From Chitinophaga barathri (GTDB lineage Bacteria; Bacteroidota; Bacteroidia; Chitinophagales; Chitinophagaceae): a DNA stretch of 64,000 bases. Positions 6,411-57,317 of the stretch are shown one piece after another. A program made the position numbers and the translations under genes. How positions within the stretch are numbered: the first letter of the stretch is position 1; each line of letters starts with the position of its first letter. The notes under the pieces were generated by a model. The model saw nothing but the letters and a program-made list of their open reading frames with translations. It made no database searches and was not told where the DNA came from. The stretch spans positions 558,001 through 622,000 of the forward strand of contig NZ_RMBX01000001.1 of the NCBI RefSeq assembly GCF_003807585.1. The letters are read 5' to 3'.

Positions 6411-6412
6411 GA

Positions 6413-6681
6413 TTAACGAGTTTTGGAAAGAGAAAGAAAGATGTGCCTTCCGGGAGGGTGCAGGCACTCAGGAAGCCGGCGGTAGCCGATTTCTTTGATC
6501 AGGCCATGTTCGCCGTAGCGATGACTGTAGCGGATTACCCACGTAACGAGTGCGTACCCCAGCACTCCGGTTACGGCTGCACATATGAAGGTGGGAATGC
6601 CGGCGATATAAAGGATGGAAAAAAGAATCAACAGGGCCACCAGGCCGAGGCCCAGATACATGATGTATTGGGCCTTTATCC
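6413..6681 (-). CDS. traF: traF 3' exon (DUF4133), interrupted by a group II intron
   Basis: This segment encodes the main part of TraF, a small bitopic or polytopic inner-membrane protein (DUF4133) of the mating-pair channel. It begins with the KAQYIMYLG motif, then two hydrophobic segments (LVALLILFSILYIAGI and FICAAVTGVLGYALV), then RYGEHGLIKEIG. The conserved N-terminus is missing here and is found 2.5 kb upstream at 9175-9232. Joining G from 9175 to GG at 6681-6680 makes a Gly codon and restores the frame as EFKG-IKAQYI, giving a 108-residue protein of normal size. The apparent N-terminal extension of the uninterrupted frame up to 6757 is intron domain V/VI sequence, not protein. Confidence 0.9.
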
Positions 6682-17727: not shown

Positions 17728-18915
17728 TTATTTGCCAACTATGAGAGTCCTCCCCTCACGTCGCACTTTCAGCGACGCATTTTGTAGCAAGCTGATAAGG
17801 GAGTCCAAGGGAATATCGGGGTCGCCAGCGGTAAACAACACAGCCACTTTGGCGTGCTGCTCATCAAGTTCTACCTCCAGATCATACCTGCGGGCAATAT
17901 CATTTGCAACTTCTCCGAGCTGTTCACCGTTATAAACGAAATATCCCTCCTTCCAGGCTACAACATCTGCGAGATTTCTTACCTGGGCAGTTTCAATCTG
18001 GTCTCCCTGCCGGGCCACCATCGACTGTTGTCCGGGAACAAGCTCGCGCACCTGGCTTCCCTTGGAGATTCGTACGGAACCCTCCAGCAGAGTGGTTTTT
18101 ATTAATCCTCGCTCAGCATAGGCGTTTATGTTGAAATGGGTACCCAGAACATCCACTTGCATTTTGCCGATAGTTGTTGGCACTTCCACCCGAAACGGAC
18201 GCTGCGGATCTTTAGCCACTTCGAAATATGCTTCCCCTTCAATGCTGACATTTCGGGTGGCCTGTCCGAAGTTGGCTGGATAACGGATGGACGACTGCGC
18301 GTTGAGCCATACCCGCGTACCATCCGGCAGCCGCACTGCATACTTACCGCCGCGCGGCGTGCGCAGGGTATTATACTCGGCGGACCGCTGGCTCCCTTCT
18401 GCCCCGAGGTAAGAAAGTTCGCCGGTGGTGTCGTTGGAAACAACCAGTCCGCCCTGATGGGCAACTATGCCGCTATTGTTACCAAGCGCAACCTCCCTCC
18501 CATCTGCCAATGTCAGTGTAGCCACGTCCTTTGCAGGCATTACAGGCATTTGCGCCATATCAGCCCTATGCTCCAGCTTTCCAACCATATAGAATACGGC
18601 CACGCCCAAAAGCACAAGGATTGCAGCGGCGGCAGACAACCGTACAAACGAGAACATTCGTCGCGCCGGCGAAAGCCGCTGCTGCATTTTTTTCCATTCC
18701 TGATCGCGCGTGTTTATGACGTAGGCGGCATCATCCAACAAAGAATGACCGTTCAGTACATCTTTAAAAAGTTGCCTGTTACTGTCGCTTTCGGCAAGCC
18801 ACACGACCAAAATAGTTTTTTCTTCCTCCGATAGCGGCTCTTCAGGAGCGCCCCCAATGTGCTTCATCAGTATCGCAGTGGGGATCTCCATCCGATTGTT
18901 ACGAGATTCTTTCAT
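17728..18915 (-). CDS. FecR-family anti-sigma/transmembrane regulator 1
   Basis: About 395 residues from ATG 18915 (a Met 7 codons later is also possible). N-terminal cytoplasmic helical part, one transmembrane segment (LSAAAAILVLLGVAVFYMV near residue 105), then a periplasmic FecR domain with the family's TLADGREVALG, RTPRGGKYAVRLPDGTRVWL and GEAYFEVAKDPQRPF motifs, and a C-terminal DUF4974-type segment ending GRTLIVGK. FecR proteins relay outer-membrane SusC/FecA signals to an ECF sigma factor. The paired sigma gene is directly upstream. Unusually, no susC follows it; the next 350 bases end in a terminator, so its receptor must lie elsewhere or be lost. Confidence 0.92.
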   Translation of the reverse strand: MKESRNNRMEIPTAILMKHIGGAPEEPLSEEEKTILVVWLAESDSNRQLFKDVLNGHSLLDDAAYVINTRDQEWKKMQQRLSPARRMFSFVRLSAAAAILVLLGVAVFYMVGKLEHRADMAQMPVMPAKDVATLTLADGREVALGNNSGIVAHQGGLVVSNDTTGELSYLGAEGSQRSAEYNTLRTPRGGKYAVRLPDGTRVWLNAQSSIRYPANFGQATRNVSIEGEAYFEVAKDPQRPFRVEVPTTIGKMQVDVLGTHFNINAYAERGLIKTTLLEGSVRISKGSQVRELVPGQQSMVARQGDQIETAQVRNLADVVAWKEGYFVYNGEQLGEVANDIARRYDLEVELDEQHAKVAVLFTAGDPDIPLDSLISLLQNASLKVRREGRTLIVGK

Positions 18916-19085
18916 AGACTTGGTGTCATTTTTGAATATTGCTGAAGAAAACACCCTCTTCCTGTTAGAATACTCTTTCCGCTACCTTATAAATGGAAAA
19001 CGGGTAGAAAATCCCGACGATTTCAGGGCAATTTTCAAATATAATTTTAATCCATGTGTTTCGTCATGATTACCAAAATAATTGA

Positions 19086-19667
19086 TCACCTGAGAAAAGT
19101 AGAGGCAATGGTTATCAAGAGGGTTGTGTTGGGATATTTCAACATTGCTTTTCGCAGCATGGCGCGCAGTATTCCGGGGTAATTCTTTGCGGTCTTAGGG
19201 GAAATTTCCAGTTTTTTGCCGATCTCCTGGTGGCTGAGCCCTTGTCGGGCAAGCTCATAGTATTTCCGATACTTTTCAGGAAGAAGAGATAAATGCTGCT
19301 CAATTTCATTGTAGAGGTCTGCTCGAGTGATTGTTTCTGCGCTGGGATCGTCAACAGTTTCCGATAGTATTGCTAAGTTGGCTCTAAATTTTTCTTCCCT
19401 TGGTAATGCTTCGAGATAAGAAAGGCAGTTGTTGCTTACGGTACGCATGAGGAAACCGACAACATGACTTTCGTTATTGAAGTTCCGATGCAGCCACAAT
19501 TTCATAAATGCTTCCTGGACAATATCCTTCGCAACTTCTTCGTCTACAACATATCTGCGTGCCTTAAGGAAGGCATGGGCATAATATTCGTCCCACACAG
19601 CCTTGAAAGCAACAGGGTCCTGCCGGTTGAGTAGCGGGACTACGTCTTTATGTTCAAATGATTTCAT
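19086..19667 (-). CDS. ECF sigma factor 1 (Bacteroidota FecI type)
   Basis: 193 residues from ATG 19667 (MKSFEHKDVVPLL); longer in-frame starts exist but add nothing family-like. Region 2 is at AFLKARRYVVDEEVAKDIVQ followed by EAFMKLWLHR, and region 4 is a helix-turn-helix, GLSHQEIGKKLEISPKTAKN. It would guide RNA polymerase to promoters controlled by the FecR partner. It is divergent from the thioredoxin-like gene of the lanthionine-synthetase operon across 407 bases, and so is placed to control that operon, its own, or both. The C-terminus ends LLITIASTFLR. Confidence 0.9.
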   Translation of the reverse strand: MKSFEHKDVVPLLNRQDPVAFKAVWDEYYAHAFLKARRYVVDEEVAKDIVQEAFMKLWLHRNFNNESHVVGFLMRTVSNNCLSYLEALPREEKFRANLAILSETVDDPSAETITRADLYNEIEQHLSLLPEKYRKYYELARQGLSHQEIGKKLEISPKTAKNYPGILRAMLRKAMLKYPNTTLLITIASTFLR

Positions 19668-20074
19668 GTGCAGTTGCCTTGGAACGTCAACTATTTGGTT
19701 CAATGATATTCCCCGCCCACTCAGCAATCCTGAATCCATTATCAATAGGCCATCGTAAAATCTAAAACGAATAGGGAATTTCTATGATATCTAATAAGGA
19801 AAAGGTCTAAGGTGAGAAAATCGTTGAACTGGTGCCGAATCGGCGGTCAATCCGCCACAATAGTAAGGAAATTTAGCCAATTCGCATACATCTGAAAAAT
19901 CAACGCTACTGAGCACTTCAACGCCTACACACCTGTCCCAAAAAGATTATAACGCTTATGTGAAACCGTACTAAGATTAAAAAATGAGACATTTTCCGAG
20001 GTATACCGAACGCATTCCAGAGGTCGCTTACTTTTATGATGTCAACATTAGTGGAATTAAACCTTTCCATCATC
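19668..20074. promoter_or_regulatory. divergent promoter region between sigma factor and LanKC operon
   Basis: 407 non-coding bases between divergent start codons must hold the promoters of both units. The region is AT-rich with a small hairpin (GGCGG-TCAAT-CCGCC near 19849-19863). I could not assign a confident Bacteroidota -33/-7 pair. In-frame codons before ATG 20075 (from 20036) are not favoured as the start because the signal peptide begins at 20075. Confidence 0.4.
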
Positions 20075-20614
20075 ATGAAACGTGGAGTCACTATCTTCTT
20101 GGTAATTGTTTTCACCTGGTTAAGTTCTTGCAAGTGGGAAGACAACTTTACAGAGGCACAAGTAAAAAACGGAGATGCAATCAACTTCCTCCCAAAATTC
20201 AAGATGCTGCGTCTAGACAGCACCGAGATCAAAAGCACTTCAATTCCTAATGACAAAATCACAATTTTAGTATTGTTCGATCCAACATGTCACAATTGTA
20301 AAGACGAGCTAATTGCGCTGAGTGACAGCATTAACCATTTTTTTTCCGCAAGCATAGCCTTAGTTGCACCATTTCCTATTTCAGATATAAAATCCTGCCC
20401 CGAAATTAAGCGCTTTGAAGGCTTAAACAACGTGACAATAGCAAGTGATCATCATAATGTCACACAGACTATTTTTAATGGAATGCAAGTCCCAATGACT
20501 TTGATCTATGACAAGGATCAACGTCTGCGAGCAGTATTCCGCGGAACAGCCGATATGAATGACTTAATTAAGCAATTCAATAAGGTAAAACAAAAGCCAA
20601 CTATGAAAGGCTAA
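20075..20614 (+). CDS. thioredoxin-like (TlpA/redoxin) lipoprotein
   Basis: 179 residues. MKRGVTIFLVIVFTWLSSC is a lipoprotein signal with lipobox L-S-S-C, so the protein is membrane-anchored in the periplasm or outer membrane. The thioredoxin fold is shown by ILVLFDPTCHNCKDEL, with redox motif CHNC, and by the cis-proline loop VPMTLIYDKD. Such proteins reduce or form disulfides on exported substrates. It is the first gene of the operon, 25 bases before the lanthionine-synthetase gene, and the three peptides encoded downstream each have a conserved Cys pair, so they are the obvious substrates. That partnership is inference. Confidence 0.87.
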   Translation: MKRGVTIFLVIVFTWLSSCKWEDNFTEAQVKNGDAINFLPKFKMLRLDSTEIKSTSIPNDKITILVLFDPTCHNCKDELIALSDSINHFFSASIALVAPFPISDIKSCPEIKRFEGLNNVTIASDHHNVTQTIFNGMQVPMTLIYDKDQRLRAVFRGTADMNDLIKQFNKVKQKPTMKG

Positions 20615-20639
20615 TATAAAAGTTTCATTCTTATAATTT

Positions 20640-23078
20640 ATGCCTACTTCCTTTAAAAATTTAGACATCAAAGATGTCTTTGAGAAAGAAAATGTGCAAT
20701 TCAAAAGTGAAAGCATCTTCCTCACAGTAGGAAACGCTTCACCAGAAGCTCAGGAGATTTTCTATATCTCAATTAGTCCCGCATTTTTAATCGATTTCCT
20801 CCCCTACTATATAAGTTTGGCACACAAAAGGCAAATTAATTATCAGATTGTCAGCACTTTAGCAAATGCTCTAGATGTTGTAGACGGTGTATACGGAATA
20901 ACAACTGTCGGCAAAACGATCACAATTTACTTTTACGACTTTGTTGACCTCCCTTTCATAAAAAATGTGATTCAGGCATGTCAAACATATTCAGGACCAG
21001 ATATTCCAGGAACATATAAAATCGACAATTGCGTTTATTCAAATTTAAAGACGAAGTTCTCAGTCACTGACTTCCCTAACATGGCCGAAGTTCAAGTTTC
21101 CAGGATAGATTTCGGTCACAACTACCAAAACACAGCTATTTTCAGCGAGCGGCCTAAAGGGAATATTCTAACCTCAACATTAATATTACCTGATAAATCC
21201 AAACAATCCGTTTTCATTAAAGAAGGAAAAAAGTGCATGTGGCGCGACAAATCTGGGCGCACAATCATAGATCGAATCAAATGGGAGGGAAATCTTCTCA
21301 AACAACTGCAGTCCATTGTCAAGGTTCCAATTCTTTTCGATGAGTTTTGCATTGACGGCAATGAATACATTGTTTTGGAAAAAATAGAGGGCTCTACATT
21401 TACGGACTTTATTAAGAAACTAAACAAAAACTATGAGGCATGGCGATACTGGAAATATTCAGATCAAACTAAGGCACTAACCACTTTCAGATCAATAATA
21501 CTAATATTAAACAAGCTATTTATTAATGGATATATACACCGTGATATTTCGAGCGAAAATTTTATAGTTGGGAAAAATGGAGAAGTGACCCTTATAGACA
21601 CTGAATCCATAGTTGATTTAAACGAACATCTGCCTGAACCACCTTTTGAAACAGGAACGAAAGGCTTCTCGAGTCCTGCGGTATTTGATAATCTAATGCC
21701 GTCGCTAAACGACCATATTTATTCAATAGGCAAATTAGCGCTATTTCTATCCACTACAATTCATCCTCTCTATTTTGACCAATACTCTTCAGACAAGCTT
21801 GCCTGGCATCTCGAAAAGTTTATTGGTCGCCATGAAATTGGACACTTCATAATATCGTGTTTGGATTATCCTAATGAATATACCCATGATCGGTTAATTT
21901 CGGAAATTGATAAAATTATAAATGAGCAAACTAATGTAAATAACCTTGGAAAGGTTGATAAATTCCATCCAAATAGAGACTCTTTGCATTCAGTGATAAA
22001 ATCAGATTTAAGCACAATTGATCTGAAGAACATTCTTTCATTTGATTTGGGGCAACTGAACTTTCTCAAAAGTAATGAATCATCATCAGATCTGGGATGG
22101 CATAACGGGGTTCTTGGTCTGGTGCATACCTTTATTAAAGCTCATAACCATAGTGGTCTATTAACCAATGCGAATGAAAGTAAAATAATAAATGAGTTCC
22201 TGACGAACATTATGGAGTTCCATATGGATAAGATAAATGACTGTAAGGTTGGACTAAAGGATGGCGTATATAGTCTGCTCTATACATGTGCGAAGGCCAT
22301 GGGGGTCTCTATCCTTAAGTCAAATGATATGTTTACCGATTTCTTTCAGCGCGTTGTATGGCTAAAGCCAAATAATACAAGCTACAACTACGGCTCGCTT
22401 GGCATCGTTCCGTCGCTACTTATAACTTCCGAGGCCCCATTTGAACCACAAATTAGAGAAATAAGCAAGGCTTTATTGTATAACCTATACCAAAATCTGG
22501 CCATCAATTTCGAAAATATAGTCAAGGACAACGATCAAAGCAACTTTATTCTTGAAAACTATTTAGCCATTTTACAGATTAAATCTTCAATCGATATTCC
22601 CTACTCACATCACATATTCAGGAGCATAACTAACAATATAAACACTTTGACAAATTCACTTCAACGTGAAATACAAATAGAAGGATTAAATAATCATAAT
22701 AAGGCTAATTATAATCGACTAATCAAATACCTAACAGTTGCTTCAGCAGGATCTGGTGCAATGTTACCAATTATTCTAGAAGAAATTAAAGACACCCTTC
22801 CAAATTTCTTGGTTCTTAACAATCCCTCCCGATTTAATGGCTTAGCCTTTTTCGGAAATATCTTTTTGCAATCATTAAAGACCAATCATTCTGAAGAAAT
22901 ACATAAAAGGCTTTTAAACATTCTCGCGTGCCTTGAATCAATGCGTATGGGTTCAAGTCAAGGTACAACTTGGTACTTACCAAATAAAACAGAAAGATTT
23001 TTCGGGTTTGATAACGGTAACAGTGGAATTTTGGATTTCTATTTGGAGGTAATTGATAGCAATGTACATCTAAATTAA
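20640..23078 (+). CDS. class III-type lanthionine synthetase (LanKC): lyase, kinase and cyclase-like domains
   Basis: 812 residues, no signal peptide. Residues 36-135 match the N-terminal LanKC region, including GVYGITTVGKTITIYF and the SGPDIPG segment. Residues about 175-430 are a protein kinase without a clear Gly loop: Lys194 (VFIKEG), Glu216 (KWEGN), HRDISSEN at 300-307, and IDTES with Asp320. Residues 480-812 repeat LanC-like turns (GWHNGVLGLVHTF, YNYGSLGIVPSLL, GNSGILDFYLEV) but lack the Cys/Cys/His zinc ligands, as do many class III cyclases. LanKC enzymes phosphorylate Ser/Thr, eliminate phosphate and add Cys to make (methyl)lanthionine or labionin. The gene is visibly AT-rich. Family assignment is strong; activity is unproven. 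Confidence 0.85.
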   Translation: MPTSFKNLDIKDVFEKENVQFKSESIFLTVGNASPEAQEIFYISISPAFLIDFLPYYISLAHKRQINYQIVSTLANALDVVDGVYGITTVGKTITIYFYDFVDLPFIKNVIQACQTYSGPDIPGTYKIDNCVYSNLKTKFSVTDFPNMAEVQVSRIDFGHNYQNTAIFSERPKGNILTSTLILPDKSKQSVFIKEGKKCMWRDKSGRTIIDRIKWEGNLLKQLQSIVKVPILFDEFCIDGNEYIVLEKIEGSTFTDFIKKLNKNYEAWRYWKYSDQTKALTTFRSIILILNKLFINGYIHRDISSENFIVGKNGEVTLIDTESIVDLNEHLPEPPFETGTKGFSSPAVFDNLMPSLNDHIYSIGKLALFLSTTIHPLYFDQYSSDKLAWHLEKFIGRHEIGHFIISCLDYPNEYTHDRLISEIDKIINEQTNVNNLGKVDKFHPNRDSLHSVIKSDLSTIDLKNILSFDLGQLNFLKSNESSSDLGWHNGVLGLVHTFIKAHNHSGLLTNANESKIINEFLTNIMEFHMDKINDCKVGLKDGVYSLLYTCAKAMGVSILKSNDMFTDFFQRVVWLKPNNTSYNYGSLGIVPSLLITSEAPFEPQIREISKALLYNLYQNLAINFENIVKDNDQSNFILENYLAILQIKSSIDIPYSHHIFRSITNNINTLTNSLQREIQIEGLNNHNKANYNRLIKYLTVASAGSGAMLPIILEEIKDTLPNFLVLNNPSRFNGLAFFGNIFLQSLKTNHSEEIHKRLLNILACLESMRMGSSQGTTWYLPNKTERFFGFDNGNSGILDFYLEVIDSNVHLN

Positions 23079-23180
23079 CTAAACGTCTGCAATAACGATT
23101 TGTGTCCCGTTATAAATGCAATTCTAAGCTGCTTTTGAAATGAGTTTGCAGTTTTATCCTCTTATTACAAAACCGAATGT

Positions 23181-23471
23181 ATGAAGAAAATAAAACCTCT
23201 ATTTGCAGTATGCTTATTTCTTTTTATAGTGAAAATAAATGAAAGCCATCCAAAGAATAGCCATAGAGCCATTCCATCTGCAATCTACTTCAAAGCGTCA
23301 TTCTCCTGTATTTTATTATTCTCAGGGTGCATACCAGGTTATTTTCAAGACGGAGCAAATGTAAGCAACCAAGCATACATCATTTCTTCAACCGGCACAT
23401 ATCATAGTCTATATGGAAACAATAATTGCGACAACCCCTCAGGTACTATCATGAGAGTAAAATTCTATTAG
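23181..23471 (+). CDS. small exported Cys peptide 1, paralogue and candidate LanKC substrate
   Basis: 96 residues. N-terminal hydrophobic signal (MKKIKPLFAVCLFLFIVKI), then a mature part of about 65 residues. It shares with the next two genes the core layout: S/A-I/L-Y near the processed start, a Cys about 20 residues in (SFSCILLFSGC, here with an extra Cys), an FQDGAN or WQDGAT turn, and the C-terminal motif YGNNNCDNPSGTIMRVKF. This is the most divergent copy. It starts 102 bases after the LanKC stop. The type recalls DUF6520-like short exported Bacteroidota proteins, but I cannot assign it. Confidence 0.75.
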   Translation: MKKIKPLFAVCLFLFIVKINESHPKNSHRAIPSAIYFKASFSCILLFSGCIPGYFQDGANVSNQAYIISSTGTYHSLYGNNNCDNPSGTIMRVKFY

Positions 23472-23626
23472 AAAAATGAACTATTGTCATATTAAATAAA
23501 TTCCAGAAACTAATAAATAAAGTAGTAAACTAATTTCAATAACATGGTGCGGTATAAAAATAGTTATCGAACCAGATAGAAAAATATTGCTCCAAAATCT
23601 TCAAATTTAAACCAAATACTTCTTTT

Positions 23627-23914
23627 ATGACTCACCTTACGACCAAAACATTAACCCTGATTTTCCTTATGACAATTTTATTGTCTCTAAATGATCCTGG
23701 GCTATTACGTGCTACTCCACCTTCACTCTATGCCAAAATTGGCGCTGCATGCGTCTTAATTCAAGCTTCAGGTGTATTACCTATATGGCAGGACAATGCG
23801 ACAATAACCGAGCAAGCACTCATAAGAGACAAAAATGGAAATTTTTGGCGAGTTTACGGAACGAGTAATTGCGATGGTCCCAATGGTAACATAATTCGTG
23901 TAAAGTTTGGGTAA
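23627..23914 (+). CDS. small exported Cys peptide 2
   Basis: 95 residues: signal MTHLTTKTLTLIFLMTILLS, then RATPPSLYAKIGAACVLIQA, IWQDNAT and finally VYGTSNCDGPNGNIIRVKFG. Two Cys only in the mature part, at the same positions as in copy 3. The many Ser/Thr before Cys1 and between the Cys residues could be dehydrated and cyclised by the upstream LanKC, or the pair could form a disulfide handled by the thioredoxin-like protein. 155 bases separate it from copy 1, leaving room for a separate promoter. Confidence 0.75.
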   Translation: MTHLTTKTLTLIFLMTILLSLNDPGLLRATPPSLYAKIGAACVLIQASGVLPIWQDNATITEQALIRDKNGNFWRVYGTSNCDGPNGNIIRVKFG

Positions 23915-24096
23915 CATCCCAAATCGAGAATCTTCTCGACGTATCAGTCAAATCGATATTGAGTAGCTACCAGTATAATGCTCCTCCAGGCATCTGATTC
24001 TGAAAAATGGAGAAAGGAATACGCCGAAAACCTTAAAACAAAGTAGGCATTTCGATTTGTTCAAAAAATCATTTTTAAATCTAAAATCATTAAACA

Positions 24097-24384
24097 ATGA
24101 AACGTACATTCTTAGCTTTTGGAGCTATTGCCCTCACTGCAGGAACCGTAGTTGTAGCAAACAACAAGGAAGACGTTAGAGCAACTCCATCATCGTTATA
24201 CGCAAAAATTGGAGCATCCTGCACATTAGTACAAGCGTCTGGTGTCAATGCAATCTGGCAAGATGGCGCAACAACGTTCGACCAGGCGAAAATTCAGTCC
24301 AATACAGGCAACCTGCATACTGTGTATGGAAACAACAACTGCGACAACGTCAGCGGTACGATCATTCGCGTGAAATTCAACTAA
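24097..24384 (+). CDS. small exported Cys peptide 3
   Basis: 95 residues. The signal is the cleanest of the three (MKRTFLAFGAIALTAGTVVV, cleavage after VVVA). The mature part has RATPSSLYAKIGASCTLVQA, the turn AIWQDGAT and the ending YGNNNCDNVSGTIIRVKFN. The two Cys match copy 2. Copies 2 and 3 agree over most of the mature chain but differ in their signals, so selection acts on the exported part. The perfect palindromic terminator follows 19 bases after the stop. It is the last gene of the operon and probably the most highly conserved copy. Confidence 0.78.
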   Translation: MKRTFLAFGAIALTAGTVVVANNKEDVRATPSSLYAKIGASCTLVQASGVNAIWQDGATTFDQAKIQSNTGNLHTVYGNNNCDNVSGTIIRVKFN

Positions 24385-24403
24385 TATAGCAGAAACTGCT
24401 TAA

Positions 24404-24445
24404 TTAGAAGCAAATGGCAGCCTGATGGCTGCCATTTGCTTCTAA
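24404..24445. terminator. perfect 19-bp palindromic bidirectional terminator
   Basis: Arms 24404-24422 and 24427-24445 (TTAGAAGCAAATGGCAGCC and its exact complement) with a 4-base loop TGAT. It lies 19 bases after peptide 3 and 3 bases after the susD stop, between converging operons, and can end transcription on both strands. The arm length and perfection are unusual. Confidence 0.9.
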
Positions 24446-24448
24446 ACC

Positions 24449-25876
24449 TCAGTAACCTGGATTCTGCGATAATGACGGATTTCGTCTAATCTCATCAAAA
24501 GGTATGGGTAGCAACTGAGCTGAACTTTTCCAACTTGGCTTGAGAGCAGGAATTATCTTGTCGGCAAGATCCCACCTTATTAAATCTAACCATCGATGAC
24601 CATACTCGACGAAAAATTCAATTCTCCTTTCTTGTACTATGTCGTTAAAAAGCTGGGTAGCATCGGAGTTAGATTTAGGACCGAGTTCCGCTCTTTGTCT
24701 AATTCTATTCAGATACGAATATCCATCGGATACCTTCCCCAGCCTAAGGGATGCTTCAGCAAGAATCATATACAACTCAGACAACCTAAATAGCACAATA
24801 TGCTCCGTTGCATCCTCTCGGGGAACCTGTTGTTCTCTACCCATTTTATACTTATAAGGGAAATACCATCTTTTTCCATTTCTTTCAATTGAACCAAGCC
24901 ATTTTTCCTTTCGCTTATCTCCTGGCTCAAACTCCTGTATCAAAGTAGAATCAAGGTAGTAGTCTATAATTCCTCCTTGAGAAACATTATAAACAACAAA
25001 TTGTCGACCTTCATTGGTCAAATTGAATGGAGCCCTCCTTACATCCTGAGCAAGCGAAAAAACCACTTCACTGCTATTTCTTTTGAACACATTATCCAAA
25101 TCCGCCTCCAAGGAGAAAAGGGCTTCATTTTTTGCTACCGTGGCAGCGTACTTTTCAGCATCAGCCCATTTTTTTCGATAAAGAGACACTCTTGATAATA
25201 GAGCAGCCGCGACCCATTTATTTACCTTTGCTCTTTCCCCATTAGAAATGCTATAATCAGTATATCCATTGTCAAATCCGAAAAGAAGATCTTCTGAAAT
25301 AAAATCATAAATTTTATCAGTTTTTTCTCTCGCCTTCTTTGCCTCTATTTTCCAATCTGTAGAAGAAATAAGAGGCACATCACCAAAATAAGATATAAGA
25401 TAAAAATAATAGAAAGCTCGAAGCGTTCGTGCTTCCGACAGCAAGCCTTTCTGAACACTTGTCTTTAAGGTTTTGCTTTTTTCCAAGCCTTCAATGCAAG
25501 CATTAGCCTGATAAATGACGGAGTATGCAGCATTCCAGAATTTGCTTACACCAGGATCATTTGATGGAATAGTATTCAATTCATAAGGGGAAATATCACC
25601 GCTGAAAACGTGAAGTTCATCCGCCATCATTCCTCCCATCATAGTCAGTTGCGCTGATAAGAAACGAGGTTGCGTTCCAACATTGACAACTTCCGAATAC
25701 AGAGTATTTACGGCTGCGGTAGCATTCGCACTATCCAAAAACGCCTTTTCAGTGTCAATACTACTTATGGGTGGCGGTATTTCCACAAGAGACTCAACCA
25801 GTTTATTGCAACTGCTAAATATAGGGAAGCAAATTCCCAATGCTAAGTGGAGGAAAAGTTTATATTTTTTATACAT
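24449..25876 (-). CDS. susD: SusD/RagB-family outer-membrane lipoprotein
   Basis: 475 residues. Lipoprotein signal ending IFSSCNKLVE, then the SusD fold: N-terminal ANATAAVNTLYSEVVN helix, TPR-like helices with YQANACIEGLEK and LLSEARTLRAFYYFYLISYF, the typical FGDVPL loop, and RLSELYMILAEASLRLGK and ERRIEFFVEYGHRWLDLIRW near the end. SusD forms a lid over the SusC barrel and binds the imported ligand. It starts 21 bases after susC stops, one operon. The ligand is not indicated: no glycosidase is nearby. RagAB-like pairs import oligopeptides, so a peptide ligand is possible given the neighbouring peptide genes. Confidence 0.93.
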   Translation of the reverse strand: MYKKYKLFLHLALGICFPIFSSCNKLVESLVEIPPPISSIDTEKAFLDSANATAAVNTLYSEVVNVGTQPRFLSAQLTMMGGMMADELHVFSGDISPYELNTIPSNDPGVSKFWNAAYSVIYQANACIEGLEKSKTLKTSVQKGLLSEARTLRAFYYFYLISYFGDVPLISSTDWKIEAKKAREKTDKIYDFISEDLLFGFDNGYTDYSISNGERAKVNKWVAAALLSRVSLYRKKWADAEKYAATVAKNEALFSLEADLDNVFKRNSSEVVFSLAQDVRRAPFNLTNEGRQFVVYNVSQGGIIDYYLDSTLIQEFEPGDKRKEKWLGSIERNGKRWYFPYKYKMGREQQVPREDATEHIVLFRLSELYMILAEASLRLGKVSDGYSYLNRIRQRAELGPKSNSDATQLFNDIVQERRIEFFVEYGHRWLDLIRWDLADKIIPALKPSWKSSAQLLPIPFDEIRRNPSLSQNPGY

Positions 25877-25897
25877 TGGAATCGTTTTGAAAATATC

Positions 25898-28800
25898 CTA
25901 AAAAGAAAGCTTGGCACCTGCAGTCAGTGCAGACATAATCGGCAATGAGCCAAATGATTGAAGTTCCGGATCAGACCCTTTATACCCTGTGATTAGCAAT
26001 AGATTATTCCCGCGGATAAATACATTACAACTGGTCATTCCCAGCTTTTTTGAAGCACCTTCTGGCAAATTATACCTAAACTCCAGGTTGTTCAACCGAA
26101 CAAAGTTGGCATTTGTAATTACTCCATCTGATATCTGAAATGCAACGTCAGATTCCTGCTGGATGACCCTTAATCTTGCAGATTTTGCAATGTCGCCTGG
26201 CTTTTGCCATCGGCTATCGTATACTTCCTTTGGAATATTGGCCGCTTCTCCGGGAACCAGGCCTCGGTATAGAGCGTTTTGTCCGTCGGCTATTCGGAAT
26301 TGAAAGAAAATACTGATTTCAAATTTTCTGTACCGGAAGTCGATGCCGACACCACCATCAGATCGTATGCTGAGATCCTTTGAAATTAAATCGTTATCAG
26401 CAGAAAAAGCATTATAGTCAATTCGTCCATCTTTGTTTCTATCTTCGAAAGTATAATTACCTGTTTGTGGGTCAACTCCTGTTAACTTTAATACTCGAGT
26501 AATTTTTATTGGTTGACCAACTTCAAATATTGACGCGTAAGGAGATTCTTCGATGCCAGGATATTTTAATAGAATATTCTTGTTAGAGAATGCGTTTGCA
26601 TAGATTTTCAAATCAATGTTACTTTTTCTTATGGGATTAAAAGATACACTTAATTCAATTCCACGATTCTGTACAGTTGCTGGAAAATTTGCTGTTACAG
26701 ACTGAAAACCGGTAGCAGAAGGCAATGCGAACTCCAACAATTGATTACCAGAGCGTCTTTGGTACCAACTTGCTTCAATACCGATTCTATCGTCAAGTAT
26801 TCCCAATTGAATACCGAAGTCAATCATTTTGTCCGTTTGCCACTCGAGATATGGGTTTGCATGTTGTACCGATCTATACGTGACAGAGCTAAGATATGTT
26901 GCGGCTGAAGGCAAAGACTGCCATCGAGTGAGATACTTGTAATCTGCTATCCGATCAGAACCTGTAACGCCGTAGCTACCTCGAATTTTAGCAAAATTTA
27001 CAAACGGGAGCGAGCGTTTGAAATAATTATCCTCTGAGATGATGTAGCCCAATCCTGCAGAATAGAAGTTTCCAATGTTTCTCCCCGCCGCAAACCTTGA
27101 TGAGCCATCCCTCCTACCTGTTAAGTTGGCAGTTAACTTAGATTTCCAGATATATGAAATTCGCCCGAATGCGGCGGCATACTTATATTCCCCTCCAACG
27201 TTACTGCCATATTGAATGGGAGCATTTTCAATCGATCTTATCAGGTTGTCATTTACAAATCCATCTCCCCTTGAATTGCTTCCATTTTGGGCAACTGTTT
27301 GATACGTTGCACCAACCTGAGCTCTGAAATCACCGTTTAAGAAAAATTTTCTAAATTCAAGTTGCGGCTCAATAATTATTCGTCCTGAATTTGCTTGCCC
27401 AATTATTGAACTACCTGTTGGATTATCCAATGGATTCTTAGAGGCAATAGGAAATATCATAATTTGGTTTTGGAAATTCTGCGAATAACCAAAATCAATC
27501 TTGAAAAGAAGTGGTTGAAGTATTTTGTATGATGCGCTTAACTGGGAATTAATATATGTCGTTTTAGCTGTATAGGGCTGCCAAATGGAACCAAAAGGAT
27601 AGCGATCAGAAATAGGATACCATCCTTTATAGTTTAGCCGGTTCTCCTCATCAAACACTTCAGGTGCATTAGGAGGCAACACTACTGATCCGACCATTGA
27701 AATCATATCTGATTTCATGAAAGAAAAATAATTAACAAAGGACAATGACAATTTCCTGTTTAAGCTTTTATGTTCAATAGCAATTTGATTGGTTATTTTT
27801 TGATCAGAGCCTGCTAATGTATTTAATGCCTGGAAATTCACAAATGATCCTGACACCCTAAATGTCGTTAGTTTGTCACCGCCACTAACACTCACATCCG
27901 CTTGAGTGAGGTTGCTGGTGCCGTTCCAGAAGTATCTCTGCCAATCCGTGTACCGGGTTGAGTCCCATAATTTCAAATCGTAGGCATTCGATTCGTCCGG
28001 CGCTATGCCGTCGTTCGCAAATGCTTCACGACGCATCTCAAAATATGTCTTTGTGTCCAACATTGGATAGTTGCGTGGCACAAAGTTCACACCACTTGAT
28101 GCTGTTATATCAAATCTTGTTTTTCCGGGCTTTCCGCGCTTTGTGGTTACCATAATGACCCCCTTGCCCCCTCTTGATCCCCAAATAGCAGTAGCCTCAC
28201 CATCTTTCAAAACCTCAATTGATTCAATATCACTTGGCGAAAGACTGTATAGTGGGCTTTGGCCTCCAGAAGGACCCGTGATTCCACTTTGATTAAAACC
28301 AGAGTATTCACTAACTACATTGGCATCAGTAACAATTGTAAGTGGGTTCAAAGGCACTCCATCGATCACTATCAGAGGATCACTTGGACCATTAATTGTG
28401 CTTTCACCTCGTATTACGAACCGAAAAGGGCCGGATTTGTATCCTGATGTCGGAGTAACTGTTAACCCTGGTACTCGACCTTGTAATGCTGTTGCGATGT
28501 TCGCGACAGGATATCTTTCGATTACGGTGCCCTTGACTGTGGTTACGTTTGCATTACTGTATCTCTTCGAAGTAATTTGGTAGCCTTCTTTCTGGACGGC
28601 ATTTAATCCTACAGTTTCGACCTTCAATCTCAAATTGACCTCTCGGTTAGAACCAACGGTAAAAAGCTGATCAGCATATCCTACGTATGAAACGCGAACA
28701 CGATCTCCTAGGTTTACATTTTGAAGGATAAAGACGCCGCTCGCCTTCGTATAGGTCCCTTTACCCGTAGTTAAATTCTGGACTGTCACATCCGAAAGCG

Positions 28801-29257
28801 GTACGTCCCCTTCGCCAATAATTAACCCGGTTATTGGGAACCCTGATCGCCTGGAAGTATCATCAACAATGTTAGGGGGCTCTGCAGTCGCGATCGCAAA
28901 TCTCTCATTTATCAAAATGCTCCGCCCCATTAATGATAGCCTAAGATCCTGTCCAACTTCTAATAGCCGAAGAGCTTCAGCGAGATCGACACTGTCCCGG
29001 CTTATCGTCACCGGTCGGGCCGTTTTCACTAAATTGTATTTACCAGCTAGGTTGAATCCAGTTGCGCGTTGAATATCGCGCAGCACAGTAGCCAAATCGG
29101 CGCCGTCATATTTCAGCCGGACTCGCTGTCCGTACGTCTCCGCACTAAGCTGTAGCGAAGCTACAAGGATAAGAAAAAAGGAGAGCTTCATAATCAGTAA
29201 AGGTTTGACAATTAACCACATACGTGGCTTAATTTCGATTTTGGCGAAAAAAAACAT
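25898..29257 (-). CDS. susC: SusC/RagA-family TonB-dependent transporter with STN domain
   Basis: 1,119 residues. After a signal (KLSFFLILVASLQLSAETYG) come an STN domain (LATVLRDIQRATGFNLAGKY and following), a carboxypeptidase-regulatory-like domain (ITGLIIGEGDVPLSDVTVQN), a plug with the SusC box (IEVLKDGEATAIWGSRGGKG) and a long 22-strand barrel ending LTAGAKLSF. The STN domain marks a transducer: ligand binding signals to FecR 2 and sigma factor 2, encoded just upstream. The extra N-terminal 22 residues before the signal suggest that a start at the later Met (MKLSFFL) may be used. Barrel passages with NYPMLDTKTYFEMRREAF are typical of the family. Confidence 0.95.
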   Translation of the reverse strand: MFFFAKIEIKPRMWLIVKPLLIMKLSFFLILVASLQLSAETYGQRVRLKYDGADLATVLRDIQRATGFNLAGKYNLVKTARPVTISRDSVDLAEALRLLEVGQDLRLSLMGRSILINERFAIATAEPPNIVDDTSRRSGFPITGLIIGEGDVPLSDVTVQNLTTGKGTYTKASGVFILQNVNLGDRVRVSYVGYADQLFTVGSNREVNLRLKVETVGLNAVQKEGYQITSKRYSNANVTTVKGTVIERYPVANIATALQGRVPGLTVTPTSGYKSGPFRFVIRGESTINGPSDPLIVIDGVPLNPLTIVTDANVVSEYSGFNQSGITGPSGGQSPLYSLSPSDIESIEVLKDGEATAIWGSRGGKGVIMVTTKRGKPGKTRFDITASSGVNFVPRNYPMLDTKTYFEMRREAFANDGIAPDESNAYDLKLWDSTRYTDWQRYFWNGTSNLTQADVSVSGGDKLTTFRVSGSFVNFQALNTLAGSDQKITNQIAIEHKSLNRKLSLSFVNYFSFMKSDMISMVGSVVLPPNAPEVFDEENRLNYKGWYPISDRYPFGSIWQPYTAKTTYINSQLSASYKILQPLLFKIDFGYSQNFQNQIMIFPIASKNPLDNPTGSSIIGQANSGRIIIEPQLEFRKFFLNGDFRAQVGATYQTVAQNGSNSRGDGFVNDNLIRSIENAPIQYGSNVGGEYKYAAAFGRISYIWKSKLTANLTGRRDGSSRFAAGRNIGNFYSAGLGYIISEDNYFKRSLPFVNFAKIRGSYGVTGSDRIADYKYLTRWQSLPSAATYLSSVTYRSVQHANPYLEWQTDKMIDFGIQLGILDDRIGIEASWYQRRSGNQLLEFALPSATGFQSVTANFPATVQNRGIELSVSFNPIRKSNIDLKIYANAFSNKNILLKYPGIEESPYASIFEVGQPIKITRVLKLTGVDPQTGNYTFEDRNKDGRIDYNAFSADNDLISKDLSIRSDGGVGIDFRYRKFEISIFFQFRIADGQNALYRGLVPGEAANIPKEVYDSRWQKPGDIAKSARLRVIQQESDVAFQISDGVITNANFVRLNNLEFRYNLPEGASKKLGMTSCNVFIRGNNLLLITGYKGSDPELQSFGSLPIMSALTAGAKLSF

Positions 29258-29937
29258 AACTTCGAAAAGTTGAAGGTTAGTGAAAGGTGATTACTATAAA
29301 TTAGCCTGCAACACTATGGTACCGCGACGGGTCACGACCGTTTCGGTACTTTTTTATGTTCAGTATTTTGTTTGCGGATATCGTACCGGTAGCGTGACGG
29401 GTACCGGAACATATCCGGGCTCCGAAAGACTACCAGGCAGGAGGTTTAATGGTCAAGCTAAAGGGAAGAAAATAGCCGGTTTCAGGTTGGGACGTAAGCG
29501 CTTGATAATCTTACGTACACGCACCATTGACGGCTCATGTCTACTGTCAACGCATAATGGCTTTCGCGGGAAATGGTCTCGAATTTAACTTTCTTGGGGC
29601 TAAACAAATCGTAGATGAAAATAGTGGAATTACACTTCAAATCAACACAGGCATAAATTTCGACACCTTTTGCCTGCTTCCGGACACTGATAACTTACTT
29701 CACAATCAATTTTATATCAACGTCTTTCGACGATTTTCTTCTTAGGGTCAGGGGGAAAGATTTCGCCCCTGCACGCTGATATACAGTTGTAATCTAAACT
29801 CTAAATCAAAAGAACAAATTACTACTGTGCATATTCGTTAACCTTGTATTGTGGGGATCGGAAGATTCCGATCCCGGTGCTTGCAAATGTGGATAGTTCT
29901 AACAAGTTTAAAATCAAATGCTTTATGTTTCAAACAA
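29258..29937. other. non-coding gap between FecR 2 and susC
   Basis: 680 bases hold the likely sigma-factor-dependent promoter of susCD. A 72-codon plus-strand frame at 29527-29745 ends in a protein-like stretch (ITLQINTGINFDTF) but lacks a recognisable family and is not called. I see no clear repeat or RNA gene. Confidence 0.4.
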
Positions 29938-31140
29938 TCAATTCTTCAATACATGGATATGCCTACCATCCCGCTCAAAACGTAGCCCGATGTCACTCTG
30001 CTCCAGCAGGCGGAGCGTCTGGTCTATTCCTTCGTTGCGGCCGATAATGAGCATCATATTGATCTCTGGCACCGGCGTTTCCCAAAGAAAAGTGACATCA
30101 TACCATCTACCAACCTCCCCAATGATCTCGGCTACCGGGATATTGTCCGCCCTGAAGAAGCCATCTCGCCAGTCGATGGCATCCTGGGTGGGCACTTGCT
30201 TAACCTCTATGTCGTCATTACTACGGCTACGCTTTACCGACGCCTGTTGCCCTGGCTTAAGCACTTTGTCGCTGTCGCCGTGTCGGACGCGCACGGCACC
30301 TTCCAGTAAGGTCGTCCTGATATCTCCCACACCCGGGTAGGCTTTCACGTTGAAATGGGTCCCCAGTACATCCACGGTCGTTGGCTTTTCACCGTTAAAC
30401 CCCAGTATTGTCACCTGGAAAGGACGGTGGTGATCCTTGGCCACTTCGAAGTATGCCTCTCCCTGTAATTCCACTTTGCGCGCATCGGCGAAGCGAGTTG
30501 GATAAATGAGCCGCGAATCTGCATTAAGCCAAACGAGCGTACCGTCGGATAGTGTCACCTGGAATACGCCTGAGCGTGGCGTCACCAAGGTATGGGTAGC
30601 TGAATAATCGCCGGTTGTGAGCTCATCGGTGTATTGAAGTTGCGTCCCGGTAATCGAGCGCACGGCTACACCGTTAGCGGTCAGCGCCAGGCTGGCGCCA
30701 GAATCCAAAGGTATCTTTCGGCCATCACCCAGTATCAGCGTTGCGCGCGAGCCTGCAGGCTTAACCGGTACTGTCATTGCTGCCTTATCGGCCATCAGCG
30801 AATTGGATGTATGAGCAATATTCTGACGCCAAAACAGCAGCGCGAACGATGTAATCAATAATGCCAAAGAGCAGGCCGCAATCAGTAAGGACCAACGGAT
30901 CTTCCTGACCTTGCCTTGTTTTCCTATGCGGCTCATGATCGCTGCATAGTTCTCGCGCCTTACCTCCAATACTTCCTTATACGAGTGCAATACATCTTTA
31001 GATGTAAGGTCTTTATAAAATCGTTTATGAAGAGGGTGTGCGGATTGCCACTGCCGCAAAAGTCCTTCTTCGTCAGGGGTAAGCTGCTGACCCAGCATTT
31101 GCCGGGCAATCAGCGCTTCTATCGCTGATGTATCCTCCAT
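29938..31140 (-). CDS. FecR-family anti-sigma/transmembrane regulator 2
   Basis: 400 residues from ATG 31140 (MEDTSAIEALIARQ). One transmembrane segment (LLIAACSLALLITSFALLF) separates a short cytoplasmic part from a periplasmic FecR domain with TLILGDGRKIPLDSG, VTPRSGVFQVTLSDGTLVWL and GEAYFEVAKDHHRPFQV, followed by a DUF4974-like tail with LRLLEQSDIGLRFERDGRHI. It would receive the signal from the STN domain of SusC encoded downstream, and control sigma factor 2. The order sigma-FecR-SusC-SusD is the standard trans-envelope regulatory operon of Bacteroidota. Confidence 0.93.
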   Translation of the reverse strand: MEDTSAIEALIARQMLGQQLTPDEEGLLRQWQSAHPLHKRFYKDLTSKDVLHSYKEVLEVRRENYAAIMSRIGKQGKVRKIRWSLLIAACSLALLITSFALLFWRQNIAHTSNSLMADKAAMTVPVKPAGSRATLILGDGRKIPLDSGASLALTANGVAVRSITGTQLQYTDELTTGDYSATHTLVTPRSGVFQVTLSDGTLVWLNADSRLIYPTRFADARKVELQGEAYFEVAKDHHRPFQVTILGFNGEKPTTVDVLGTHFNVKAYPGVGDIRTTLLEGAVRVRHGDSDKVLKPGQQASVKRSRSNDDIEVKQVPTQDAIDWRDGFFRADNIPVAEIIGEVGRWYDVTFLWETPVPEINMMLIIGRNEGIDQTLRLLEQSDIGLRFERDGRHIHVLKN

Positions 31141-31280
31141 TGGAGTTGGTTTAATAATTAATACTATACCATCGATCTTCACTACTGCTTTTCGGCTTCT
31201 TTCCCGTGGTATACATAATCAATACACAGAAGTGGGCGATTTGTCCCGGTACTTTGAAAAAAAGTCTTTATGCCTCCGAA

Positions 31281-31868
31281 TTACCCGGCGCCGGCATTGG
31301 ATAGCCATGCCACCGTCTCCGATCCCATCAGGCAAAATGCAACAAGCGCCCAATCTCCTCGGGCTAGTTCCTCGCGCATGTAGCGCTTGGCAATGGAAAA
31401 TCTGTTTTTAATTGTCTTTGGATGAGTCGCCAGCAGGACGCCGATTTCATCAGTGTGATACCCCTCAACGTATAGTCGTATAATCTTTCGGTCGATATCG
31501 CTCAGCTTCAAGAGCTCTGATTCGACCAATTCAATCACCCTAGCGCGAATGTTGGCCAACATGGCGCAATGCGCATCGGAGATCAGGAACGAAGCCTCGA
31601 TGTCCATTTTTTTCAACCGAAGGTTTTTGGAATGCCGCGACACATATTCGCACCGGTTTTTTACCGCGATCATTGCGCAGCCTTCTAAATGTGCCCGGCT
31701 GGCGAAATCCTTACGAATAAGGGACACAAATACGTCCTGAACGACATCTTTGGCGTCTTCGTTGCCCACAAAGGTTGACGCGTAGTAGAATAACTTGTCA
31801 TGCAGTCTTAAGTACAGTTCCTGGAAGTCCTCGGCGGAGCCGTCGCCGAACCTCATAATCTTTTCCAT
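31281..31868 (-). CDS. ECF sigma factor 2
   Basis: 195 residues from ATG 31868 (MEKIMRFGDGSAEDF). Region 2: YYASTFVGNEDAKDVVQDVF; region 4 helix-turn-helix: GYHTDEIGVLLATHPKTIKN. It precedes FecR 2 by about 140 bases. It differs in sequence from sigma factor 1, so the two pairs are not a recent duplication. Its C-terminal tail contains a hydrophobic ALVAFCLMGSETVAW stretch of unknown meaning. Confidence 0.9.
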   Translation of the reverse strand: MEKIMRFGDGSAEDFQELYLRLHDKLFYYASTFVGNEDAKDVVQDVFVSLIRKDFASRAHLEGCAMIAVKNRCEYVSRHSKNLRLKKMDIEASFLISDAHCAMLANIRARVIELVESELLKLSDIDRKIIRLYVEGYHTDEIGVLLATHPKTIKNRFSIAKRYMREELARGDWALVAFCLMGSETVAWLSNAGAG

Positions 31869-32959
31869 GTTGAGCCTTTTATCACTACTATTCAAATTCG
31901 AACTCCCCACGTATGACGATGGTCCCAGCAGTCTACGATAGCATCGGCAGATGGCAACGACACCGCGAGGGCGGTTAGGGTTGTAGCAGAAAAATGTATT
32001 CTAAAGGAAAAGGAGGCGCTACGGCGTTTTGGGGCGCAACCGCCTGCTGCAATCCGGGCGAGGCTATGCCTCTGCCAGGTTCAGGTTGGAAAGGAATGTA
32101 TTTTCTTCAGCAATATTCAGAGGTAAATATACTCGAATTTTTTTTAACTATCATCTACTTTTATTCAACCTTATTTAAAAAACATTGAATAATACATAGA
32201 AATTATATGAAAACGTTAAATAGTGTTCAAATTCCCGATGCAATAAAAGATTTTGACCTCACTTAAGAGGCCGAGCTGTTCGGGGAAAGCACCTATCCAT
32301 TATTTTTGTTTCTGCAATTTCTACAAACGGGTAGCATGTCTTTTGCCGGAATACGTGCTCGATGTCTCACTACTGTGCCACGGAGATAGTCAGGGTCAAT
32401 CCCCCTGTTTATCCCTGGTCCACCGGTCAACCATGCGGGAATAACGGCCCCGCCTTTTAGAGATCAATCACCATTTACAACCGCAACGCGTTTTTCCTCC
32501 TCAGACGCGTGGCAAATTTTTCGCTCCGTCGGAACGTTCCCTCGGTGTCTTGGTGTGCACCTGCACGCTAAGCACACGATCGAGTTCTAACCGGAACAGG
32601 CCGACACATGTTCATTAACCAAAAATCGCCCATGTATCCAAACAATGTCAATACCCGTATTCCTTCATACGATGATCTGCGCGATTCCTTTTGCCAGCCA
32701 CAAAGTTCGTCTACCAGTCCTTCTTCCGCACTGTGGCACTCACCGTTAGGAATACGCCAGTGGTTGCAGGAGTATGTTGCTGCCTTTACTTGCCGACCTG
32801 GCCGTCAATGCCTTTTACTGGCCATCCGAACTTACGGAATAGTAGTCGCATACAAAAAATATCTTATACACACCCGTACCGGTCCGAACGACTTCCGAAC
32901 CGGACAACTGCAAATACGGCTGAATCTGACACTTCAACTTTCGTAATAAACCATCAATC
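31869..32959. other. non-coding gap
   Basis: About 1.1 kb between sigma factor 2 and the next plus-strand gene. Only short frames occur (longest about 110 codons at 32608-32946, antisense to another frame, low protein likeness). No tRNA, repeat or insertion-sequence end is evident. It may carry the promoters of the sigma 2 operon and the 266-residue gene. Confidence 0.4.
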
Positions 32960-36701: not shown

Positions 36702-36748
36702 AGCCTCGTTTTTTTAAGTGATGGAATGGCATGGCGCCTGGCCCGAGG

Positions 36749-49364: not shown

Positions 49365-49390
49365 GCAAATCAAAATTCAATTCAAAATTC

Positions 49391-57151: not shown

Positions 57152-57284
57152 GGTGAATTGATTTTAAAATGATGAATAAGTATTAATGCGTTCGGTTTTT
57201 GCCGCACTCGGCTACGCCTCGCGCTTCACCATCGTAGCATACCAATTCCTATCGGGGCCAGTCGGAAGTCAAGGTTTTCGCAGC

Positions 57285-57317
57285 AATTTTTTTTTGACGC
57301 TTCGGCAAAAAAAAATT
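57285..57317. repeat. A/T-tract inverted repeat in the 57152-57663 gap
   Basis: AATTTTTTTTTG (57285-57296) pairs with CAAAAAAAAATT (57306-57317) around ACGCTTCGG: a perfect 12-bp arm with runs of nine. It lies upstream of ssb in a 512-base gap with no supported gene. It could be a terminator of the helicase gene, an A-tract bend or a replication-related element; the poly-T/poly-A ends make a terminator on either strand plausible. Confidence 0.5.

Follow-up and report, generated by a model that had tools for sequence, protein, structure and literature searches.

A 64,000-nucleotide stretch of the Chitinophaga barathri genome (contig NZ_RMBX01000001.1, positions 558,001 to 622,000; hereafter the window) contains an island encoding a relative of the lanthionine synthetase LanKC, a TlpA-like thioredoxin lipoprotein with a CHNC motif, three small paralogous peptides with predicted signal peptides, a SusC/SusD transporter pair and two pairs of an extracytoplasmic function (ECF) sigma factor and a FecR anti-sigma factor. 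All these genes had been named by an original prediction made from the DNA letters of the window, and all of them are found where it placed them. The genes of the island travel as one unit. Our preferred reading, held tentatively and at slightly less than even confidence, is that within this unit the LanKC-like enzyme would act as a peptide Ser/Thr kinase and would form no lanthionine. Most of the dehydration active site of the window enzyme is lost and its kinase is intact, so that it would likely add only phosphate; phosphorylation appears the simpler reading of this copy.

The LanKC-like enzyme and its relatives

The window enzyme combines a lyase, a Ser/Thr kinase and a LanC-like domain within a single chain, in the order of class III synthetases, and its predicted fold matches CuvL, ThurKC and SalKC over the whole length. 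Pfam recognised RamC_N in 10 of 13 aligned relatives and LANC_like in 9 of the 13. The class III assignment made by the original prediction stands for fold and domain order but not for family score: the enzyme reaches 72.7 bits on the class III model NF038151 of NCBIfam (cut-off 575) and slightly more, 91.9 bits, on the class IV LanL model NF038150 of the same database (cut-off 650), both falling short. The class IV model also outscores the class III model in all three relatives scored (182-287 vs 111-217 bits).

The available part of a study of ThurKC names eight lyase residues and reports K65A and R163A as variants without turnover (PMC10604976). Six of the eight were scored here (K65, H67, K94, K117, D152 and R163, in ThurKC numbering); K108 and R191 were left unscored because both are Ala in CuvL in the alignment, and the window enzyme has neither. 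Among the six, the window enzyme retains K117 only. The position of K65, the phosphate-binding Lys, holds Lys in 0 of the 72 relatives having a lyase domain. In the 48 full-length relatives the scored residues were retained as follows: K65 in 0, H67 in 29, K94 in 21, K117 in 43, D152 in 26 and R163 in 36; in the 24 forms without LanC domain, R163 and D152 were retained in 0. The kinase residues K257, D364, N369 and D382 (ThurKC numbering) are present in 72 of 72. The window copy would be a relative of class III synthetases with its lyase in decay.

The lanthionine product implied by the original prediction corresponds to a different reading, in which a class III/IV lanthipeptide is exported by Sec after LanKC has dehydrated Ser/Thr and formed thioether or labionin rings, with compensating residues in the lyase. 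The whole-length fold match is in line with it, as are the 14 of 48 full-length relatives that retain all five scored residues other than K65; the single residue left in the window lyase and the absence of Lys at position 65 throughout the 72 relatives speak against it, and we consider it rather unlikely.

Other features of the enzyme family also vary. Across 57 LanC domains, only one Cys and one His column, candidate zinc-ligand positions picked by conservation, exceed 60%; the two columns are not adjacent, and the window enzyme has Thr and Asp there. The lyase-poor state is found in 41 of 72 relatives; about ten changes along the kinase tree account for it, only two of which are forced by well-supported branches. 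Natural variants among 82 LanKC genes include 24 without LanC domain, grouped by a weakly supported branch of the same tree, and 10 without lyase domain, which a strongly supported branch separates from the rest. TlpA and DUF4221 proteins are encoded near 9 of these 10 lyase-less genes, and a helix-turn-helix protein, a phosphoesterase and a 270-amino acid protein near 8. One lyase-less relative, with kinase and LanC domains, belongs to the genome of the window itself (L040, C22:193500-212500); its neighbours encode an HTH_11 regulator, metallophosphoesterase-like proteins, a DUF4221 lipoprotein, a TlpA-like protein and a peptide. Elsewhere a lyase-kinase gene and a kinase-LanC gene lie within a few kb of each other (L080 and L081), possibly a split pair.

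LanKC relatives were found in 63 of 79 Chitinophaga genomes. The first single-sequence search of the family matched 16 of 195 genomes; searches of the order and the phylum, in which the best two candidates per genome were scored, matched 21 of 396 genomes (one of them of the same order and outside the family) and 6 of 395 (the own genome, one of the same family and four others), respectively. The five matches outside the family are frames of 542-902 amino acids that match the kinase profile and neither the lyase nor the LanC profile. Because they carry just the kinase part, the LanKC-like lineage was seen in one bacterial family, Chitinophagaceae, in these samples. A first contig scan with the window LanKC gave no relatives, and look-ups by shared 5-residue words, made for one peptide and for the window LanKC, returned only the query itself; the relatives were found by profile and whole-genome searches. 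In another family of the phylum, two neighbouring frames of 888 and 895 amino acids (L170:1297-6660) match the kinase profile only.

Recurrence and co-similarity of the island genes

Neighbourhoods were compared for 82 LanKC genes (78 loci plus the window, from a genus search giving about 100 matches; one locus with fragments only, L043, and three fragment open reading frames were left out) and for 19 control regions taken from the same contigs at a distance of about 100 kb; another LanKC is situated about 11 kb from one of these controls (L105). Signal peptides were called by our own hydropathy heuristic. Within 5 kb, a signal-bearing small peptide with at least two Cys was found at 62 of the 82 LanKC genes (1 of 19 controls), TlpA at 54 (1 of 19), MauE at 44 (1 of 19), SusD at 46 (2 of 19) and the combination of peptide, TlpA or MauE, and SusD at 37 (0 of 19). 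After dereplication at 60% identity the peptide was present at 56 of 72 and the full combination at 34 of 72. The original prediction depended on peptides accompanying LanKC relatives in most genomes, and at 62 of 82 they do. Its two sigma/FecR pairs, both present in the window, are not a conserved part of the system: ECF sigma factors and FecR occur within 5 kb of 9 and 7 of the 82 genes, respectively. Its claim that the ABC (ATP-binding cassette) exporter and the protease are missing holds for the island, in which none of the genes resembles either among the library matches of the island proteins, and ABC-ATPase signature genes are found near 1 of the 82 LanKC genes compared to 5 of 19 controls; proteases, however, appear near some relatives (S9 prolyl oligopeptidase at 9 of 82, S8 at 3 of 82). 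The available part of a large survey suggests enzymes of the S9 type as the LanPB of class III clusters (PMC7268733), a point in favour of a lanthipeptide product.

The orientation of the genes recurs as well. The nearest peptide gene shares the strand of LanKC in 52 of 62 cases, SusD lies downstream and convergent in 36 of the 42 loci having both peptide and SusD, and tail-to-tail junctions shorter than 500 bp, between a peptide gene and SusD, TlpA, S8 or S9, occur in 40 places, including the window. The nearest SusDs to that of the window, from a genus search in which the best 20 or fewer candidates per genome were scored, have a LanKC gene within 12 kb in 7 of the first 10, 7 of the first 20 and 14 of the first 50 cases, compared to 0.44% of random positions (the baseline being positions, not random SusDs).

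Peptides, transporters and enzymes also resemble each other in parallel. When 190 other pooled peptides were searched with a profile built from the three window peptides, it picked out the five peptides of L067 and L073 (E at most 2.5e-4; the next at 0.013), loci which share the gene order of the window and which hold the two SusCs nearest to that of the window among loci L025-L122. Peptide similarity correlates with SusC similarity (r 0.24, 64 loci, 0 of 500 permutations), SusD similarity (r 0.225, 65 loci, 0 of 500 permutations) and LanKC similarity (r 0.15, 63 loci, p 0.008), and the values for MauE and TlpA are 0.22 and 0.18. In partial correlations over 43 loci, the relation to SusC given LanKC is 0.16 (p 0.002) and to SusD given LanKC 0.12 (p 0.02); that to LanKC is 0.11 given SusC (p 0.06) and 0.18 given SusD (p 0.002). 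The recurrence of the neighbourhood and the tracking of SusC, SusD and LanKC by the peptides support the linked island of Sec-type peptides (by the heuristic), redox proteins and SusC/SusD that had been proposed.

The original prediction had itself allowed for two unrelated loci side by side, a peptide/LanKC operon and a SusC/SusD operon. Transcription is indeed convergent, and SusD-like genes are abundant in the genus (65-216 first-look candidates per genome). Against these two facts stand the downstream and convergent SusD of 36 of 42 loci, the proximity to LanKC of 7 of the 10 nearest SusDs and the correlation between peptide and SusC; we regard this alternative as highly improbable and largely refuted, recurrence and co-similarity speaking for one recurrent island. 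A pure chance neighbourhood is rejected on the basis of the recurrence, the SusD proximity, the peptide correlations and the gene orientation.

The peptide-redox-SusC/SusD part is also encoded without LanKC. In 12 genomes, short-form MauE genes occur at 53 places, 13 adjoining a LanKC match and 39 without LanKC (one place was left out of the tally); 38 LanKC-less loci were pooled, and a qualifying peptide was found in 29 of them. Since the module is also found without it, LanKC seems to be an optional tailoring enzyme added to a more widespread peptide-redox-SusC/SusD module. Those 39 of 53 places also fit a reading in which LanKC is a kinase-type regulator or an enzyme for another substrate and only the peptide-redox-SusC/SusD part forms a unit; the shared strand of LanKC and the nearest peptide gene in 52 of 62 cases counts against that reading, which we judge unlikely. 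A family of about 350 amino acids recurs with MauE/peptide modules, both with and without LanKC (L131, L132, L134, L137, L140-L148, L152, L162-L165, L026, L041, L052, L053, L060 and L076); one member tried gave no Pfam match.

Features of the peptides and the proposed pathway

The three peptides of the window are paralogues with a Cys pair, as originally described, peptide 1 having a third mature Cys; peptides 1 and 2 are 49% and 42% identical to peptide 3. No Pfam or NCBIfam family describes them (one NCBIfam match, E 0.018, was far under its cut-off), and the AlphaFold2 model of the peptide is poor (pLDDT, the predicted local confidence score, 63.6; pTM, the predicted template modelling score, 0.49). 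In an alignment of eight members, the invariant positions are C42, Q63, I66, G71, C82 and V92.

The class III core motif SxxSx(2-5)C is found in 0 of the 3 window peptides, even allowing Ser or Thr; among 79 peptides from full-length-LanKC loci, 3 have it in its strict form. The relaxed motif [ST]xx[ST]x(2-5)C is present in 39 of those 79 compared to 25.7 in shuffles, which again favours the lanthipeptide alternative; its absence from the window peptides does not.

About 26 composition tests were made, with uncorrected p values, and Thr gave the strongest difference: 14.8% in full-length-LanKC loci vs 10.2% in LanKC-less modules (36 vs 29 loci, p 9e-6) and 12.9% in LanC-less loci (p 0.02). Beside full-length LanKC, compared to LanKC-less modules, acidic residues were fewer (4.0% vs 6.0%, p 0.007) and peptide charge was higher (+3.0 vs +0.4, p 3e-4). 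No Ser enrichment was found in LanKC loci. In the uncleaned peptide set, the test of Ser plus Thr gave p 0.013 when full-length loci were used and p 0.92 with the LanC-less ones. The Thr content did not correlate with the state of the lyase (rho -0.12, p 0.5). Between homologous pairs beside LanKC, Thr was conserved at 59%/58% vs 49%/45% overall, and Ser at 35%/25%; in pairs without LanKC (15 pairs only) Thr, at 56%, was not above the overall 60%. Enrichment and conservation of Thr in LanKC loci argue against an enzyme unrelated to the peptides.

The conservation of Cys (90-94%) is about equal with and without LanKC. The number of Cys was even in 138 and odd in 14 peptides of a cleaned set. 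For this set, 11 open reading frames were removed by eye as improbable or broken members of the family, and so were peptides whose mature part has zero or one Cys, which favours even counts at two; three Cys-less peptides were retained. The same cleaning preceded the composition, conservation and motif counts and the similarity correlations. In peptides with at least three Cys, even counts also prevailed (44 vs 14, p 1e-4; 28 vs 13 in LanKC loci, p 0.03). In L025, L046 and L047, Cys-free exported peptides (in L047, one of two) are encoded beside LanKC, with an adjoining subtilase-like S8 protease (matched by Pfam in L025 only).

The enrichment and conservation of Thr, together with the Cys parity, point to Thr as the target of the enzyme and to disulfides as the fate of the Cys. 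The Thr signal leaves phosphorylation and dehydration unseparated in relatives whose lyase appears intact. The mostly even Cys counts, the equal conservation of Cys without LanKC and the Cys-free precursors all argue against thioether rings, and they leave the lanthionine product implied for the window copy unsupported, as do the lyase reduced to one scored residue and the existence of the module without LanKC.

In the pathway that we propose under the preferred kinase reading, the three peptides would be made with predicted Sec signals, and LanKC would phosphorylate their Ser/Thr in the cytoplasm, a step suggested by an intact kinase beside a lyase with one of six scored residues. Sec would then export the phosphorylated peptides, because they carry a signal and no ABC exporter is present. 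The TlpA lipoprotein, in relatives often accompanied by MauE, would form or repair peptide disulfides, as the invariant Cys pair and the mostly even Cys counts suggest. Finally, the tail-to-tail SusC/SusD pair would bind the mature peptide for re-uptake or sensing, because peptide similarity tracks SusC similarity, and the adjacent FecR/ECF pair would relay the signal; the loop of re-uptake or sensing envisaged by the original prediction may thus be retained.

Several observations weigh against this proposal. At the level of the peptides, the eight-member alignment contains zero invariant Ser or Thr and the window peptides, with 3, 4 and 7 Thr, are not Thr-rich, so that the kinase claim is weaker for the window locus; the low Thr content also fits an enzyme acting on another substrate. 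Lys plus Arg, Gln, His and Gly differ too in one or both composition sets, and Gly, Tyr and others are likewise above average in conservation beside LanKC. At the level of the enzyme, at least three of the five scored lyase residues other than K65 are present in 31 of 72 relatives, in which dehydration may persist; the alpha-C Glu of the kinase is Gln in 70 of 72 relatives (Glu in the window); and the window LanKC is a long branch on the kinase tree, with a best kinase identity of 36%. It is also closer to the copies of L090, L047 and L055 than to those of L067 and L073, so that enzyme and peptide need not move together. At the level of the locus, a peptide having two or more Cys is missing from the 5-kb surroundings of 20 of 82 LanKC genes, which agrees with another substrate as well, and a few of these genes lack every part of the module; three loci of the own genome (L123, L124 and L125) combine MauE, Cys-pair peptides and SusC/SusD without LanKC; no MauE gene was found in the neighbourhood of the window island; and whole-locus shared inheritance accounts for the co-similarity equally well as ligand-receptor co-evolution.

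Layout of the island and comparison with known systems

The genes of the island and its surroundings are listed in Table 1. The hairpin between peptide 3 and SusD has a fold z-score of -9.95, with 0 of 200 shuffles equally stable, and is possibly a terminator shared by the two genes; it is absent from the list of a consensus terminator scan. The N-terminal STN-like stretch of SusC is a weak match (STN E 0.1, 12.9 bits vs a cut-off of 28.4). For the second sigma/FecR pair, upstream of the TlpA gene, the link to the island is unproven. The GC content is 35-40% at 20-28 kb and 44% at 28-30 kb, compared to 45-54% in the remaining window. Conjugation and replication genes flank the island on both sides (3861-6467, 34722-38245 and 56753-62694), including a TraG P-loop protein, a type IV secretion system coupling protein, a MobA-type relaxase, a single-stranded DNA-binding protein and a 1676-amino acid SNF2/helicase, and therefore the island is probably cargo on a conjugative element. 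The window also encodes a group II intron reverse transcriptase/maturase with an HNH domain (6791-8608) and two neighbouring large RHS-repeat proteins of 1216 and 1446 amino acids (45714-53731).

Table 1 Features of the island and its flanks (positions in the window; aa, amino acids).
Feature	Position	Strand	Remarks
Second ECF sigma/FecR pair	sigma 19086-19745, FecR 17728-18954	-	divergent from TlpA gene; library matches
TlpA/AhpC-TSA-like thioredoxin lipoprotein	20036-20614	+	Pfam AhpC-TSA E 4e-6; lipobox LSSC, motif CHNC; directly upstream of LanKC
LanKC-like protein, 812 aa	20640-23078	+	lyase ~8-184, kinase ~188-410, LanC-like ~440-812
Peptide 1, 96 aa	23181-23471	+	three Cys past signal; predicted signal peptide (hydropathy heuristic)
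Peptide 2, 95 aa	23627-23914	+	Cys pair in mature part; predicted signal peptide (hydropathy heuristic)
Peptide 3, 95 aa	24097-24384	+	mature Cys pair C42/C82; homologues beside LanKC in two other species
19-bp perfect hairpin	24404-24445	.	between tail-to-tail peptide 3 and SusD genes
SusD-family lipoprotein	24449-25876	-	Pfam SusD_RagB E 5e-29, over cut-off
SusC TonB-dependent transporter, 1119 aa	25898-29257	-	TIGR04056 E 1e-168; TIGR04056 and TIGR04057 over cut-off
FecR anti-sigma factor	29938-31182	-	upstream of SusC; Pfam FecR E 6e-16
ECF sigma factor	31281-31910	-	upstream of FecR; TIGR02985 E 6e-17, under its cut-off

The enzyme shares with class III LanKC (CuvL, ThurKC, SalKC, PneKC) and class IV LanL the lyase-kinase-LanC order, the predicted fold and an intact kinase. 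It differs from them in that the window copy has lost most of its lyase residues, and its family includes variants without LanC or lyase domain; the precursors carry predicted Sec signals in place of a leader, the window peptides have no class III core motif, ABC exporters are rare nearby, and SusC/SusD, TlpA and MauE are linked. MauD and MauE serve the disulfide maturation of methylamine dehydrogenase, and the resemblance lies in the pairing of an exported, Cys-containing polypeptide with a MauE-family membrane protein (PF07291) and a thioredoxin-like protein; here, however, the substrates would be small peptides paired with SusC/SusD, LanKC is optional, and the window island itself has no MauE. 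The RagAB/SusCD oligopeptide importers with FecR/ECF signalling have the same components as those present here (SusC, a SusD lipoprotein, FecR and an ECF sigma factor upstream), but in the island the cell itself would make the apparent ligand, a peptide whose gene lies tail-to-tail with those of the transporter.

A precedent for the export route comes from ribosomally synthesized and post-translationally modified peptides (RiPPs) made by MNIO enzymes, the bufferins and the ChrH/DybA RiPP-lipoproteins of Bacteroidota, in which, in the parts of the sources available, a cytoplasmic enzyme modifies precursors with Sec or lipoprotein signals. Those parts show experimental evidence of Sec use for bufferins and describe Sec signals on RiPP precursors as rare (PMC12452194), place DoxX genes in bufferin clusters (PMC12452194, PMC12636315), and report that DybA-type RiPP-lipoproteins of Bacteroidota co-occur with SusC/SusD, one cluster having a secreted prolyl oligopeptidase (PMC12636315). 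Unlike the enzyme of the island, MNIO is an iron oxidase acting on Cys and not a LanKC-like kinase; the precursor motifs were compared by reading only. Signal-bearing RiPP precursors and a link to SusC/SusD are thus not unheard of, and the enzyme class here differs. No prior description of the LanKC-peptide-SusC/SusD arrangement was found among the matches listed in searches of the open-licence literature, judged by title and the start of the abstract.

According to the available part of the large survey mentioned above (PMC7268733), most LanKCs and LanLs occur in Actinobacteria and Firmicutes; in the present genomes, LanKC relatives are common in one genus of Bacteroidota (63 of 79 Chitinophaga genomes), and the usual ABC exporter is seldom nearby. 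A wider, doubtful extension of our reading is that the Chitinophagaceae lineage of synthetases consists of dedicated kinases, whose phosphorylated, disulfide-bonded and Sec-exported peptides are read by a cognate SusC/SusD-FecR-sigma receptor as an extracellular autocrine language. If the kinase reading is true, lanthipeptide enzymes would have a second job, phosphorylation; LanKC would become one of the few RiPP-type enzymes whose precursors carry Sec signals; and SusC/SusD transporters would gain a self-made peptide ligand. The natural variants of this family, with a decayed lyase, without lyase or without cyclase, lend themselves to direct tests of what each domain does.

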